IMG/VR virus record: IMGVR_UViG_3300042197_001846
Location: 1-58,579 of that record
From: a virus
Strand: one strand, 5' to 3'
Length of the DNA: 58,579 bases
Positions 41,311-57,133 of the stretch are shown here, in pieces. How positions within the stretch are numbered: position 1 is the first letter of the stretch; the number at the start of each line of letters is the position of its first letter. Under the pieces are notes generated by a model. That model made no database searches. It saw nothing but the letters and a program-made list of their open reading frames with translations, and was not told the DNA's origin. The position numbers and the translations under genes are program-made.

Positions 41311-41730
41311 CTAGGTAAATTTGGTGAAAAATCCACTGGACTTTTCAACCACACCACCAACAAGTTTGGCACGCTGAGTTTCAATCCAAGACTTTTGCTT
41401 GGGCACACTAGCTACACTAGGGATTTTACCATAAACACTGTGCAGCATTACATGGTGTCGGTTGCACAGTGTGTACACCAGCTCATATAATTCTACATAA
41501 TGCTCACTAATAAACTCATCTCGAACTGCTAGAATACCACTATCAGTACTAATATCATAACCTAGGCTATCTGCCCACGCATATAACAGGTTAGTTATAC
41601 TGTGCAGGTGGTGTAACTCAAGATCACCCGTACCACCGCAAATATAGCAACTGCCTTGTTTGACATAGGCTGCTTTAGCCTTGTCGCGTACCCATTTTAC
41701 TGCAATACGATTATTTGTATTTTTTGCCAT
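41311..41730 (-). CDS. HNH endonuclease-like packaging protein
   Basis: A 139-residue protein with two zinc-like Cys pairs: CYICGGTG (residues 28-32) and the pair around CNRHH (about 107-111). ELHHLHSI supplies the HH of the HNH core. HNH proteins next to terminase take part in cos cleavage or packaging in HK97-like phages. It lies between the large terminase and portal genes and is the first gene after the 41.74 kb promoter. Confidence 0.85.
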   Translation of the reverse strand: MAKNTNNRIAVKWVRDKAKAAYVKQGSCYICGGTGDLELHHLHSITNLLYAWADSLGYDISTDSGILAVRDEFISEHYVELYELVYTLCNRHHVMLHSVYGKIPSVASVPKQKSWIETQRAKLVGGVVEKSSGFFTKFT

Positions 41731-41742
41731 CTTTTAAACACA

Positions 41743-41771
41743 ATTATACCACTAGTGCTACTAAAAGTCAA
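41743..41771 (-). promoter_or_regulatory. Sigma70-type promoter for HNH-portal-capsid operon
   Basis: TTGACT, 17-bp spacer, TATAAT on the minus strand with an AAAAAATTTT tract upstream, located immediately after the terminase stop. It gives the head genes transcription independent of terminase. Confidence 0.85.
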
Positions 41772-41790
41772 GTAGCAAAATTTTTTAGGG

Positions 41791-43080
41791 TTAGATTACA
41801 TAACTGTAAAGTGCATAACGCACTGCATCAGCCATGTGACTAAAACGATTATGCTTTGGGCGCTCACGAGTTAATCCCTCACGATCATCCCACTGATATT
41901 GATCTAGCATTGCCAGAACATGTTGACAACTGTGATGAACCTTAAATCTACCTTGCTGCACTAAGGTTTGCACATAGGCAATGCCTGGTAGTACATCTTT
42001 TTTAGCGCGTGTAGTACTTAACTCATAGTTGTAGGCTAGGTCCGCTGCAAATTGTGCAGCTGCACTATCAATAAATATAGTTTCTACCGAATATTGTTCA
42101 ACAAAACGGGTAAAGTGCTCGGCGTGCTCACGTGTAGTGCGCTCCGATTCTAGGTAGTCCTGTATACAATAAAAACAGTCAGTTGCATAATCATAGGTAA
42201 TAGTTACCCAGGCTGTTTCGTCCTTGTAACCTGGATCTAGTCCAGCTATAGTTTCGCCACGTAGATCTGGCAACTCTTCTAGCACATACTCCTGGCGGAA
42301 ACCTTCATAAATCTGACCCAAGTAGCTGGTAAAGCTGGCCATATACTCCTGCTCAAACTCTGCTTTAGGCATGCTGCGGCGTGCTTCCTCCACATCCGAC
42401 TCAGCCATCCTGGTATTTTCAGTATAATCTGCTTGTATACTCACCCACTCGGGAAAGTTGGTATCAAAGCCACGACTAAAAAACTTTGAAAACCAGTTGT
42501 TTTTACCACGCGGTGTACTAATAAATATTGCCTTGCTATTCGGCTTGTCTAGTGTAGGACGTAGCTGTACATTAAATGCTTCCTCACCACGCTCGCTCAG
42601 GGCAGCCTCATCAAATATTATAAGGTCATAACTACGCCCAACTGTACTATCCACTGTACTAATAGATCCCATGCGAATAGTTGAACCATTCGACAATTCG
42701 ATTACTTTGTCCTTAAGATTATCACGTGTTACTTCCAGGTCAAAGTGCTTGATCAATTTACGCTGTAGCTCAAACGAGATTGAACTGAGATTATAGTTTG
42801 GCGATATAATTAACACATTACAGTTGGGCACTAGGGTTACCAGCTGACCTATAACATTGGCTATGTAGGTTTTGCCTAATCGCCTGGCAAGTGCTGCACA
42901 AATAAAACGATATTGTGGGCTGTTGATAGCATTGATCAATGCAATCTGCGGACGATTGATTGTATCGTAGATCCCAAGCAAACGCAGGTAGTTGTCAATA
43001 GGCAGTTTAATAAATCGACGGTCGGCTGGAAACTCGTATATATAATCACACTCTACATCTGTTCTGCTTACTGTTAACAC
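41791..43080 (-). CDS. terL: Terminase large subunit
   Basis: A 429-residue motor-nuclease. Walker A is ARRLGKT (about residue 63), Walker B is LIIFDEAA (about 151), and FISTPRGKNNW is the coupling motif. The nuclease part has GLDPGYKD (about 271), IFIDSAAAQ (about 336) and a C-terminal DAVRYALYSY with the final acidic residue. It pumps DNA into the prohead and cuts concatemers. It is short but complete. Its start overlaps the small subunit stop by one base. Confidence 0.95.
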   Translation of the reverse strand: MLTVSRTDVECDYIYEFPADRRFIKLPIDNYLRLLGIYDTINRPQIALINAINSPQYRFICAALARRLGKTYIANVIGQLVTLVPNCNVLIISPNYNLSSISFELQRKLIKHFDLEVTRDNLKDKVIELSNGSTIRMGSISTVDSTVGRSYDLIIFDEAALSERGEEAFNVQLRPTLDKPNSKAIFISTPRGKNNWFSKFFSRGFDTNFPEWVSIQADYTENTRMAESDVEEARRSMPKAEFEQEYMASFTSYLGQIYEGFRQEYVLEELPDLRGETIAGLDPGYKDETAWVTITYDYATDCFYCIQDYLESERTTREHAEHFTRFVEQYSVETIFIDSAAAQFAADLAYNYELSTTRAKKDVLPGIAYVQTLVQQGRFKVHHSCQHVLAMLDQYQWDDREGLTRERPKHNRFSHMADAVRYALYSYVI

Positions 43081-43836: not shown

Positions 43837-44163
43837 ATGGCAACAGCCAAAGCCCCTAATTATAGCCCTGAGCAAACTGCTCAGATTGTAGAACAATACC
43901 AAGCCGGTGTTACGGTTGAGCAGATTGCCCAGACTATGGGCAGGACTGTTCGCTCAATTGTAGCGAAGCTCAGTCGTGAAAAGGTTTATATCGCTAAAGA
44001 ATATAAAACCAAGAACGGTGAAGCTCCCGTGAAAAAGGATGTTCACGCCGACTTCATCGGTGCTGCTCTCAAGCTCAGCGAGAACGATATAGAATCGTTA
44101 ACGAAGGCTAACAAGAGCGCACTTCGCGCAATCTCGGATTTTATCCGTAACTCTGCCAACTAG
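43837..44163 (+). CDS. Small HTH DNA-binding protein, paralogue 1
   Basis: A 108-residue protein. Residues 9-50 (YSPEQTAQIVEQY, VTVEQIAQTMGRTVRSIVAKLS) form a GcrA-like helix-turn-helix. The middle is basic (EYKTKNGEAPVKKD), and the C-terminus is helical (LSENDIESLTKANKSALRAI). The same architecture occurs at 47530-47856 and 49011-49331. Such proteins are widespread in phages and are presumed transcription regulators; I do not know a tested function. AGGAG lies eight bases before the ATG. Its own upstream interval carries cassette-like elements, so autoregulation is plausible. Confidence 0.85.
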   Translation: MATAKAPNYSPEQTAQIVEQYQAGVTVEQIAQTMGRTVRSIVAKLSREKVYIAKEYKTKNGEAPVKKDVHADFIGAALKLSENDIESLTKANKSALRAISDFIRNSAN

Positions 44164-48660: not shown

Positions 48661-48763
48661 GCGCCAGTGCAAAAACTCAAGTGCAAAACTTTGAGCTGGT
48701 CTGCGCCAACATTATAGTGGAAATCCTTGGGCCAAGTCAAGTAAGTTTTTCTGACCCTAAACC
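48661..48763 (-). repeat. Duplicated promoter unit A
   Basis: Order (plus strand): GCGCCAGTGC, GTGCAAAA, GCGCCAACATTATAGTG, TTGACT -35 (minus, 48735-48740), then CTGACCCTAAACC. The minus promoter TTGACT, 18 bp, TATAAT (48711-48716) has the same GGCGC start box as the cassettes but no palindrome. The dispersed 11-mer lies directly upstream of its A/T tract. Confidence 0.7.
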
Positions 48764-49010: not shown

Positions 49011-49331
49011 TTAAATCGATTTATCCAGTTTAGGGTCAAGTAATCGCCTGTTAAGTAAGATTAACACCGATTTATTCACCTTTTCTAGGCTTTCTAACTG
49101 ATCGCTGGGAACCCCCAATGTTTGGGCAAGTTGTTCGATATACTCCCACTTCTTTACCGGCACCTCGCCACGTTTGTTGAGGTACGTCTTTTTTTGGTAG
49201 ACACCCAAACTGGAGAGCTTGGCAATTATGCTACGGTCAGGGACGCCAAGAGTATTAGCAATCTCCAACGTAGTTGCTCCGCCTTTATATTGTTCAACAA
49301 TCTTATCTGTAATTTCTTTGGTATATTTCAT
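49011..49331 (-). CDS. Small HTH DNA-binding protein, paralogue 3
   Basis: A 106-residue protein with the same plan as the two plus-strand copies but more distant: YTKEITDKIVEQYKGG, TTLEIANTLGVPDRSIIAKLSSLGVY, a basic linker (KTYLNKRGEVPVKK) and LESLEKVNKSVLILL. The C-terminal DPKL codons are a copy of the dispersed 11-mer. It is the last gene of the minus-strand early operon. The three copies suggest a small regulator family; DNA targets are unknown. Confidence 0.85.
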   Translation of the reverse strand: MKYTKEITDKIVEQYKGGATTLEIANTLGVPDRSIIAKLSSLGVYQKKTYLNKRGEVPVKKWEYIEQLAQTLGVPSDQLESLEKVNKSVLILLNRRLLDPKLDKSI

Positions 49332-50732: not shown

Positions 50733-50762
50733 AAAACAAAAGCCCGCACAAGGCGGGCTTTT
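50733..50762 (-). terminator. Intrinsic terminator of large RNA 1
   Basis: AAAAGCCCGC pairs with GCGGGCTTTT around five bases, then TTTTGTTTT on the minus strand. Confidence 0.9.
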
Positions 50763-51700
50763 GAACTGTACATGTTTTTAGTTTAATGGCGGTGGATTGC
50801 TTTTATGTAGCGCTACTACGACCACCATACATCTTTGTCTACACTCTAGCTAGTTGCGAATTAGCGTAAGTCGGTGTAGGCGATGCCACGAACATCGGCT
50901 GTTCTTAGTTGCTGTTCGGTCTTGGGTTCCAGCCAAGATATGGGCAACTAGCGCGGGTAGGGTTTTCACCTACATTCCCCACTTAAGGGATGTTTGCTTA
51001 CAAAACCGCGACTAACCCAGGCTCTGGGGTCAGGCCTTGCCATTTATTGTTGGCGCACTGCCCTGTTAGGGCATAATCAGTATTTTATACTAGCTGCGGT
51101 ATTATCTGACTATACATAATACGCTAGACCCTAAACCGGATCGGTTGCCAGGCTAGAGGGCTTATTTCTAGCACACCTTTGCTCTGAGCACGTTTGAGCT
51201 ACTGGCATATTTGTTAACGACTGTCTACCCCACAGCTCCAGTTAACTACGGCTTGTGGCATGTAACCCTGAGTTCATTATCCAACTGGGTTGGCAAGAGG
51301 AATAGCTCAAGGACTGTAGTGGGTGGCCGCCATGCACTGTGGCAGAATCGGCTCCACTGGTTTCTAACTCTCGTGTTAGATAACGCATAACTACGTATAT
51401 GCTACGGTAACAGGTCTTTTGGTTAACCCCTATAACTGTTAACAAACTAGGGGGCTGGTTCCTTTAGGGTGGTTAGCAGCTTCCACCATAATGTATATCC
51501 GTTCCGCAGCAGGTCAGCTACGCAAGCTCGTTGGCCGCAGATTTCAACACATTTGTATAACCACCAAAAGGCATGGGGTCAAATCAGCAGTTATACAAAT
51601 AGGTTGAGGTGGGTCTGTGTTAAGGGTAAATTCAACACAGATTAAGAACTTATCCAACAGATTAGTGTTGGCCCTGGTTCGCCCTAAACTGTCACTCAAT
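50738..51700 (-). ncRNA. Candidate large structured non-coding RNA 1, about 960 nt
   Basis: This interval runs from the predicted start of the 51.71 kb promoter to a strong terminator. Its only listed ORF (51242-51445) has no ribosome site or protein-like composition. Perfect local stems include 51551-51561 with 51590-51600 (11 bp), TCTAAC/GTTAGA, GCTAGA/TCTAGC, CTTGG/CCAAG, GCCCT/AGGGC, CCCAG/CTGGG and GTAGG/CCTAC with a UGAAAAC loop (50957-50973). Two dispersed 11-mers lie inside. Size, ornate structure and phage context recall GOLLD and ROOL RNAs, which form cage-like oligomers, but I could not match a consensus. Confidence 0.75.
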
Positions 51701-51706
51701 AATAAT

Positions 51707-51735
51707 ATTATACACTACGGGGACTCTTGTTTCAA
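51707..51735 (-). promoter_or_regulatory. Promoter of large RNA 1
   Basis: TTGAAA, 17-bp spacer, TATAAT, with an AAAAATATTC tract upstream. The -35 and spacer are also the last codons and stop of the 64-residue gene, so the promoter is embedded in a gene end. Confidence 0.9.
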
Positions 51736-54320: not shown

Positions 54321-54345
54321 AAAAATGGCAGCCAAGTGGCTGCCA
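54321..54345 (-). terminator. Intrinsic terminator of large RNA 2
   Basis: TGGCAGCC-actt-GGCTGCCA followed directly by TTTTT on the minus strand; textbook terminator. Confidence 0.92.
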
Positions 54346-55253
54346 AAGAAAAACCATACAAAAGCTGATTACTATTCCTCACCTTTTGGGCGCTACACTA
54401 CATGGCTAGCTATGCTTGTATCGAACCCTAATCAGCTTTTGTATGGCTACCGGTTACAAAATCCGGCGTTACACTTTCGGAGTAACTGTTCTACCTATCC
54501 CGCTACCCTACTTCGTTTAAGACTCGCCGCCTTTATACACGCTGATAGCCACGTGTTATGATATTGCTATCATATTCAAACACATTTGAACCTTTCTTCT
54601 GTGCTCAGACACAATCTCCCATCTAGAGTGGGCGTGGGGTATGTGCTTGAATATGATACCAGTCCCTAAACTGGATCATATTGTCTTTTTACTCTAGGAC
54701 GACAGTCCGCAAGTCTCAAATAGCCCTATGCGTAGTCCACCATCACTCGCATATTTTAGTTGACGGGACTTTCACCCGCCTCGACATTGGCCGCCTAGCC
54801 ACTAGGGAAATGTGACAGCAAGCTTATCGGGCCTTATTATCCTTACCCTAAACCGCGGCAGGTGATAGTATTGAGGCTATCAGCGTCAACCTTGTGGGTT
54901 TTGGGTTTCGCTGGAGTTGCACCAGCTCATCAGAGGATTTAGTTAGCTACCACTCCCACATGGCCCTAACTTGAGCAGTTACTCTGTCCATACCTTAGTC
55001 GGGGTAAGGTACGCCCCGTTACCGTTTTACCCTAAACCTGGATGAATGGCCCAGTGGGAGGTCTGGCAACTAACCTAAAGCCTCTAACGCTAGCTTTATC
55101 GCGCTCGGCCATTGGGTATGGCCGAGATTAGTTAGTACAGTCAGTGGTCGCTACAATGCACATTTTGTGTAATATATAAATATTTATTTAGTGTGGCAAA
55201 ATGTCATTTAAAGCTGTGGGCCTTGTCAGGCTTTACTTTCCTCACTGACTATA
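54321..55253 (-). ncRNA. Candidate large structured non-coding RNA 2, about 930 nt
   Basis: From the predicted start of the 55.26 kb promoter to the terminator. An 18-bp perfect long-range stem (54354-54371 with 54429-54446) encloses 57 bases near the 3' end. Other perfect stems: CTCGGCCAT/ATGGCCGAG, TACCTTA/TAAGGTA, AGTCAGTG/CACTGACT (5' domain) and GGCGGG/CCCGTC with UGAAAGU loop (54762-54780). Three dispersed 11-mers lie inside. The 78-residue ORF at 54325-54561 on the other strand runs through the 18-bp stem and is judged spurious. Compared with RNA 1 it has similar length, promoter, terminator and loop motif, but little overall sequence identity by eye. Confidence 0.75.
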
Positions 55254-56434: not shown

Positions 56435-56570
56435 GTTTTAGTTCCTCTATGTGTTCTTCTATGATTTTTGCAGCCATTTGATTGAAAGTAATGTCCAATT
56501 CATGCGCACGCTTAGCAATGTGCAAGAACTCTTCATCAGTTAGCTCAACTTGTACAGTTTCCATTTCCAT
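56415..56570 (-). CDS. Small ribbon-helix-helix-like protein, 51 residues
   Basis: A strand (TVQVELTDEEFL) followed by two helices (HIAKRAHELDITFNQMAAKII and EEHIEELKR) is the Arc/MetJ ribbon-helix-helix pattern of dimeric DNA-binding proteins. The ATG overlaps the preceding phosphoesterase stop. It may be a regulator; target unknown. Confidence 0.65.
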   Translation of the reverse strand: MEMETVQVELTDEEFLHIAKRAHELDITFNQMAAKIIEEHIEELKRGTHNS

Positions 56571-57133
56571 TACATGGCCCTTTCGCCGTGTTCGTGAAAG
56601 CCCACATGACCGCCACGAAATTTAATTATACGCTTACATTCTTCAAAACTGATTGGTGTGTAGTTGACACGCTCTACACTTACGTTAAAGTATCTAGGGT
56701 CAACTTTATCCCCAGGCAGTACAACCTCGCGGTAGTGCAGGTGACCATGTATATTACAGCCAAATCTAGCCAGACTATCTGGGTGTACTGGTATATGACT
56801 CAACAGCATACCATCAAGTACATGATAGCCACGAACATCGTCTACATAACTGAGGTATTCTTCAGCAGGAAAAATATCGTGATTGCCTTTGATCAACACT
56901 TTACGTCCACGTAGTCTGTCTAGGGTATGTATACTCTTGCGATTGATAACCACATCACCTAGCATGTATACACGGTCTTTAACCCCAACAACACGATTCC
57001 AGTTCTCAATCATGTGCTCGTCCATCTCCTCAACACTACTAAAGGGGCGCAGCCAAGTGCCGTCGTGTCGGGTAAACTTTATAATGTTTGCATGACCAAA
57101 GTGCATGTCACTGATAAGCCAACAATTACTCAT
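56570..57133 (-). CDS. Calcineurin-like metallophosphoesterase
   Basis: A 187-residue enzyme with all metal-site motifs in order: SDMHFGHANII (residues 8-15), GDVV (about 59), KGNHD (about 82), LLSHIPVHPD (about 110) and IHGHLH (about 127). It hydrolyses phosphate esters at a two-metal site. Phage relatives act on nucleotides, DNA/RNA ends or cyclic signals; the substrate is not visible here. A small membrane gene precedes it. Confidence 0.9.
   Translation of the reverse strand: MSNCWLISDMHFGHANIIKFTRHDGTWLRPFSSVEEMDEHMIENWNRVVGVKDRVYMLGDVVINRKSIHTLDRLRGRKVLIKGNHDIFPAEEYLSYVDDVRGYHVLDGMLLSHIPVHPDSLARFGCNIHGHLHYREVVLPGDKVDPRYFNVSVERVNYTPISFEECKRIIKFRGGHVGFHEHGERAM

Follow-up and report, generated by a model that had tools for sequence, protein, structure and literature searches.

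A conserved, folded phage RNA that shares modules with phage tRNA arrays and carries a predicted hammerhead ribozyme

Comparative analysis shows that the minus strand of the window (the whole 58,579-base stretch of DNA analyzed here, an IMG/VR virus record) encodes RNA2, a conserved, folded RNA without coding capacity. Our preferred explanation, to which we assign a probability of roughly 0.6, is that RNA2 is a stand-alone, stable phage RNA composed of modules known from tRNA arrays, and that a hammerhead ribozyme splits it into pieces that would act during infection. A preliminary description of this DNA had proposed a large structured RNA at this position; that RNA2 is modular, is connected with tRNA arrays and contains a predicted hammerhead goes beyond it.

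RNA2 originates from a freshwater phage whose record contains terminase, portal and major tail protein genes, and whose portal is 38-40% identical to T5-like (Demerecviridae) portals. The terminase ORF (41791-42672, within 41311-43080, minus strand) begins inside the ATPase domain and is followed by a short ORF (41311-41730); the N-terminal part may sit in an unread exon or in another frame.

The RNA2 transcription unit, including its promoter, stands alone at 55288-54321 on the minus strand. The promoter (55288-55260) was assigned by its match to the consensus, and the pattern TTGAAC-N17-TATAAT occurs twice in the window compared to 0.07 expected matches; the looser TTGAA-N16-19-TATAAT occurs six times compared to 0.40 expected. 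TTGAA-N17/18-TATAAT is repeated along the minus strand between 50381 and 55288, often followed by ATTATT, and is found 5' of both large RNAs of this phage as well as 5' of several small genes. The predicted transcript as a whole (54321-55253, about 933 nt) is supported by promoter and terminator, full-length homologues and covariation. It begins with a 5' domain (55135-55253), seen only in the window lineage, which is closed by an invariant 11-bp stem, TATAGTCAGTG/CACTGACTGTA, and contains an inner hairpin covarying in three of four pairs. Toward the 3' end, an 18-bp hairpin (54354-54446) is kept in the related phages L084 and L086, and an intrinsic terminator (54321-54345), consisting of a stem at 54345-54326 and a T run, is invariant in all four homologues. 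The promoter, the roughly 930 bases without a credible ORF and the terminator described earlier are thus confirmed, all on the minus strand; the 18-bp perfect stem was also reported correctly, since direct reading places it at 54354-54371 with 54429-54446, around a loop of exactly 57 bases.

Both strands have strongly negative folding scores (z = -7.3 for the minus strand against 20 shuffles, z = -6.6 for the plus strand), so that folding energy by itself does not define the strand of RNA2; the promoter, the terminator and the orientation of the modules do. Within the interval no ORF exceeds 78 amino acids, and this longest one is antisense and is not kept in the relatives. A protein-coding role was rejected, as no reading frame is conserved among them.

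Records L082 and L083 represent the same phage as the window (100% identity), and a 256-amino-acid gene neighboring RNA2, used to look for relatives, retrieved the same phage only. RNA2 is present with the same gene order in L084 (87% identity), L085 (84%, with parts of the 3' half missing) and L086 (76%). In a curated structure of 125 pairs compared across these three relatives, 25 pairs carry changes on both sides, compared to 9.5 in shuffled controls (none of 500 shuffles reached 25) and 1-6 when the partners were slid. Stretches of 80-170 nt, for example in module C (see below), are invariant among the relatives, with compensatory changes in the stems that separate them. The genes around RNA2 are similarly diverged (71-90% in most cases), and the conservation signal therefore lies in the pattern of change and not in overall identity. 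Covariation is silent on many of the longest stems, which are invariant. Together, homologues and covariation strongly support the large structured RNA proposed earlier, including the covariation of its stems. The preliminary description had also considered a decayed gene cluster. The interval is indeed long and without an ORF, as expected of such a cluster or of spacer DNA with chance stems, but no decayed cluster was found, and the compensatory changes, the near-invariant stretches and the lack of a conserved reading frame argue against both; refuted by covariation, this explanation retains practically no probability.

Three blocks of RNA2, recognized as sequence patterns, recur in many unrelated phages. 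On the minus strand, with 55300 as the starting point, they occupy positions 171-372 (module A), 445-662 (module C) and 720-872 (module B). Comparative analysis shows that module A (54941-55128, minus strand) belongs to what appears to be a widespread RNA family of phage tRNA arrays, about 205 nt long and absent from Rfam. The family was found on at least 100 phage contigs, and its 18-mer core, GGACAGGGTAACAACTCA, in at least 120 IMG/VR contig stretches. In bacterial and archaeal genomes totaling 257 Gb the core matched twice, in both cases in a non-homologous context without the hairpin, and a presence of module A in bacteria or archaea was rejected on the basis of these two chance matches. 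Family members consist of a 5' H-type pseudoknot, a stem P3, a tiny hairpin and a 3' hairpin, P4. Among 72 sequences less than 85% identical, 10 of the 12 P4 pairs show compensatory changes, with 217 both-side-changed cells compared to 73 +/- 7 after shuffling and 28-39 after sliding. P3 closes just 5' of GGACAG and has 4.56 paired bases, compared to 3.34 +/- 0.12 with partners swapped between sequences. Corresponding values are 4.89 compared to 3.51 +/- 0.16 for the 5' pseudoknot, and 2.91 compared to 2.87 for a neighboring control region. The loops are strongly conserved, and the conserved unpaired motifs are identical across very different phages.

Of 103 distinct copies of module A, 96 have same-strand tRNAs within 3 kb, and the nearby tRNAs number 1055 on the same strand and 0 on the opposite strand. 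Typically the module fits exactly between two tRNAs, and GGACAG lies about 150 bases from the end of the first and about 57 from the next. An upstream tRNA is nearby in 48 copies, and in every one of them it ends in CCA; as a rule, no more than a few bases separate CCA from the start of the module. The base that follows CCA is A in 26 of these copies, G in 18 and T in the other 4. HDV-like theta ribozymes are known from the same place in phages, directly after tRNA CCA ends and on the same strand (PMC10879173). It could thus be that module A and its neighbors, or the stems between them, are processing elements that set the 3' ends of preceding tRNAs as theta ribozymes do, with RNA2 a side branch lacking tRNAs. 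Such a role would agree with the pseudoknot starting a few bases from CCA in nearly all of the 48 copies, and with the repeated 13- to 15-bp stems between modules. We nevertheless regard it as improbable: theta ribozymes start at G1, whereas no fixed G1 follows CCA in the 48 copies; none of the Rfam ribozyme models, HDV-like ones included, matches the arrays at E <= 1; and module A of RNA2 is strongly constrained although no tRNA is attached to it.

The window contains a single copy of module A, located within RNA2, which has the core motif GGACAGRGTAACNNCTCA and the P4 hairpin and matches the covariance model at 55051-54928 with 63.9 bits (E 3.6e-16), a score that is not independent because the window copy and its relatives are part of the model's alignment. 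In the window lineage, a plain covarying hairpin replaces the 5' pseudoknot and there is no adjacent tRNA. The window copy is a derived member that retains the 3' core.

Rfam searches in 65 kb of arrays of the module A type identified no family beyond tRNA-type models and weak, low-scoring matches. The module A model had no match in eight whole cultured phage genomes, and blastn of module-bearing stretches had none in 50,697 phage records. Five of six uncultured phage records of 165-400 kb contain one or two copies, a figure that is not a frequency because most of these records were chosen for the core motif or for module B. Most of the first copies were obtained from relatives of a phosphoesterase-like gene of the window (56570-57133, minus strand; named by homologue annotation), homologues of which adjoin many phage tRNA arrays. 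At the end of one array (L185:3323-3406), a tRNA-like stretch gave weak matches to tmRNA (21 bits, E 1e-4, over 60 bases only) and YrlA, and may be an odd tRNA-like element.

Module C (54642-54843, minus strand) begins where the 5'-OH product of the hammerhead is predicted to begin and contains an invariant TCCCTAG and a loop, TTTAGGGA, that could pair with each other; six distinct copies are located in tRNA arrays of other phages. Module B (54435-54581, minus strand), nearly invariant over 147 nt, is present in L084 and absent from L085 and L086; other phages hold 18 distinct copies of it in their tRNA arrays. Outside the window lineage, all 24 copies of modules B and C are near same-strand tRNAs. 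The order of modules is A-C-B in RNA2, A-B-...-C in L183 and B-C in L180; module B occurs twice in L194, and module A alone between tRNAs in L196 and L201. Since module order varies and B is absent from L085 and L086, RNA2 is a mosaic, and these comparisons show that modules were shuffled, lost and gained between phages.

Overlapping the ends of modules C and B is the stem of a palindromic cassette, ATATTCAAGCACA-cargo-TGTGTTTGAATAT (54572-54654, minus strand). At the same site of RNA2, the cargo of the window phage differs from that of L084 and L086, and in other phages the stem recurs at scattered sites between tRNAs and RNA modules, each time around one of many different inner sequences. 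Out of 71 distinct examples, 70 are within 3 kb of a tRNA, compared to 74 of 150 positions drawn at random from these loci. Besides the window site (54572-54654), cassettes of the form ATATTGAAGCACA-variable cargo-TGTGTTTCAATAT are found between tRNA genes and RNA modules in L087, L090, L130, L133, L145, L183, L197, L201 and others; identical cargo recurs in different phages, and cargo varies at homologous sites. The pattern looks like an exchange of short RNA cassettes.

Modules with strongly conserved loops inside tRNA arrays could also be decoys, mimicking structures that host anticodon nucleases cut or defense proteins bind and thereby shielding the phage tRNAs. The shuffling of modules would fit an arms race of this kind. 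However, no tRNA-like fold or anticodon-like loop was recognized in A, B or C (ARAGORN predicted no tRNA), and the constancy of the unpaired motifs across very different phages speaks against mimicry as well, so that we consider decoys very unlikely.

Between modules A and C, RNA2 contains a predicted type I hammerhead (54839-54938, minus strand), with core and stems read directly from AUCCU-CUGAUGA-GCUGG(UGCAACU)CCAGC-GAAA-CCCAAAACC...GGUUUAGGGU-A^AGGAU. Stem I (54938-54934/54843-54839, AUCCU/AGGAU) is followed by the core CTGATGA (54933-54927), stem II (54926-54910, GCUGG/CCAGC), GAAA and stem III (54906-54897/54854-54845, ACCCAAAACC/GGUUUAGGGU). Self-cleavage of RNA2 is strongly predicted between 54844 and 54843, after GUA, with predicted products of about 410 nt (5') and about 523 nt (3'). 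No other such arrangement exists on either strand of the window, RNA1 (see below) included, 150 shuffled windows contained none, and a search of the window and related phages found no convincing hammerhead outside the RNA2 lineage. The minimum-energy structure of the isolated segment is the hammerhead. The window sequence has the conserved CUGANGA/GAAA core, A15.1-U16.1 and an H17 other than G, and the core is invariant in L084, L085 and L086. Stem II has changes on both sides in four of five pairs (UCAU/AUGA in L085, GCCAC/GUGGC in L086), and all five pairs of a hairpin within the loop of stem III covary; stem I is invariant, and stem III is mostly so, with two imperfect positions. Rfam Hammerhead_3 scored 16.3 bits (E 0.39), below its gathering score of 48.5; the long stem III insert does not suit this model, and the hammerhead was therefore called by its core and stems. 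The A.A mismatch in stem III of the window, and a U.U at the first stem II pair of L085, may slow cleavage, and given these and the low Rfam score we treat cleavage as a prediction.

According to our preferred explanation, RNA2 would have been assembled from modules A, B and C and the hairpin cassette, which elsewhere are separate genes in tRNA arrays. The hammerhead would split it into one piece containing the 5' domain, module A and the ribozyme (about 410 nt) and another containing module C, the cassette, module B and the hairpin (about 523 nt), and self-cleavage would replace the processing that tRNA maturation enzymes would provide for modules in arrays. During infection, the pieces could function as stable particles of RNA or as scaffolds, as proposed for GOLLD and ROOL. 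Their likeliest target would be phage tRNAs or host translation, because elsewhere the modules lie nearly always among same-strand tRNA genes; it is from this co-location that we infer a possible biological role of RNA2 in translation. More tentatively, and as a possibility in which our confidence is limited, modules A, B and C may form an unrecognized phage RNA machine, encoded piecemeal among tRNA genes with exchangeable cassettes, whose parts were fused in the window lineage and are re-cut by the hammerhead. If true, phage translation would be linked to an RNA system that is modular, recombines and contains no protein, with cassettes flanked by palindromic stems and with many uncultured, often very large phages as carriers.

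RNA1, the sister large structured RNA (50737-51708, minus strand), has its own promoter (51735-51707) and a terminator, which confirms the earlier observation that the two intervals follow the same plan. It folds with z = -3.8, is present in five relatives (L084, L085, L086, L203 and L206), and shows compensatory changes in 32 of 266 predicted pairs (for example, TCTAACACGAGAGTTAGA compared to ACTTACTACGAGAAGTAAG); whole hairpins were gained or lost among the relatives. Rfam gave weak matches only, mostly to its terminator. The suggestion of a duplicated, diverged system was not upheld: a sequence comparison of RNA1 and RNA2 found nothing in common beyond the promoter box and the short motif GTTTAGGG, module A is single-copy and located in RNA2, and as far as sequence can tell RNA1 is not a recognizable duplicate of RNA2. 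It is possible that the two work as a pair, because both occur in L084, L085 and L086.

The motif GTTTAGGG, often as GTTTAGGGTCA, occurs 12 times in the window compared to 2.6 expected, with copies at 48755, 48802, 48940, 49028, 49344, 50440, 51129, 51682, 54664, 54846 and 55030. It is located just 5' of two TTGACT-TATAAT promoters and also within stems or loops of RNA1 and RNA2, and complementary copies, CCCTAAAC, are present on the same strand. A general function of these repeats as hammerhead strands was rejected, several being placed just 5' of ordinary promoters. Two small proteins encoded at 43837-44163 (plus strand) and 49011-49331 (minus strand) look alike and may be helix-turn-helix regulators; one of the two genes is near several GTTTAGGG sites.

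Large noncoding RNAs of phages have been described before. GOLLD (RF02032) is a noncoding RNA of about 0.8 kb from phages and prophages, often near tRNA islands and with conserved and variable regions; ROOL is a large, ornate phage RNA of 0.6-0.9 kb near tRNAs, abundant in one host; and for both a role in translation or with tRNAs has been suggested but is unproven (PMC12286853). RNA2 is similar to them in the loose sense of a large phage noncoding RNA near a tRNA island, with tRNA arrays 5-10 kb away in L084-L086. Rfam searches of both large RNAs of the window, at gathering scores and at E <= 10 (4227 families), assigned no family. Neither the window, nor related arrays, nor any of 20 related records matched the GOLLD covariance model, which likewise had no match in control genomes; ROOL had no Rfam match in the window or related arrays. 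For RNA2, there was no tRNA or tmRNA match by ARAGORN or Rfam, and of group I and II introns only a group II fragment of 13.9 bits (E 8.7) was found, while RNA2 has its own promoter and terminator.

RNA2 might instead be a GOLLD- or ROOL-like RNA that works only intact, as a homo-oligomeric cage, its hammerhead being inactive, reversible or regulated and its modules peripheral domains. A 14-mer RNA cage is characteristic of GOLLD. Size class, phage origin and tRNA-island association would match, and the repeated short loop could kiss (TTTAGGGA with TCCCTAG) in the manner of the kissing loops of GOLLD and ROOL (PMC12286853). Yet A, B and C occur singly and reordered in intervals of about 200 nt between tRNAs, so that a long RNA is not needed, and a GOLLD or ROOL match in Rfam is lacking. 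We consider an intact cage unlikely. Unlike GOLLD, RNA2 has modules that are shuffled and also found separately between tRNA genes, and it contains a predicted hammerhead; unlike ROOL, it differs in module content and has no Rfam match. RNA2 thus appears to resemble GOLLD and ROOL in genome context and to be a member of neither.

Two large long noncoding RNAs in one phage are known from phage K, and one very abundant, orf-less noncoding RNA of about 800 nt from ICP1 (PMC9241854, PMC7567579). RNA1 and RNA2 correspond to the former in number and RNA2 to the latter as a large orf-less RNA, but there is no sequence link to either (blastn, 50,697 phage records). Phages and prophages are known to contain hammerheads (PMC3088659), and that of RNA2 is similar to the phage type I with its CUGAUGA...GAAA core, three stems and NUH (GUA) site. 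It is located inside a large RNA between modules, with a 43-base structured stem III insert, whereas the reported phage cases lie between genes. Module A shares with theta ribozymes its place directly after the CCA of phage tRNAs on the same strand, but it is about 205 nt long, has another architecture and does not require G after CCA. We found no description in the literature of the module A family or its core motif, of structured RNAs of this kind in phage tRNA arrays, of the module shuffling or of an embedded hammerhead, and a recent subscription paper may have been missed. The module A family appears to be common in uncultured phages, absent from Rfam and without a match in the cultured phages searched, and it bears on the open question of what phages gain from tRNA clusters beyond tRNAs. 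The hammerhead between RNA modules offers a directly testable processing step. For GOLLD and ROOL the folds are known but not the function; by comparison, the modules described here, as single genes of about 200 nt in tRNA arrays, are of a size suited to structure determination, pull-downs and deletions, and 72 diverse module A sequences can guide such work.
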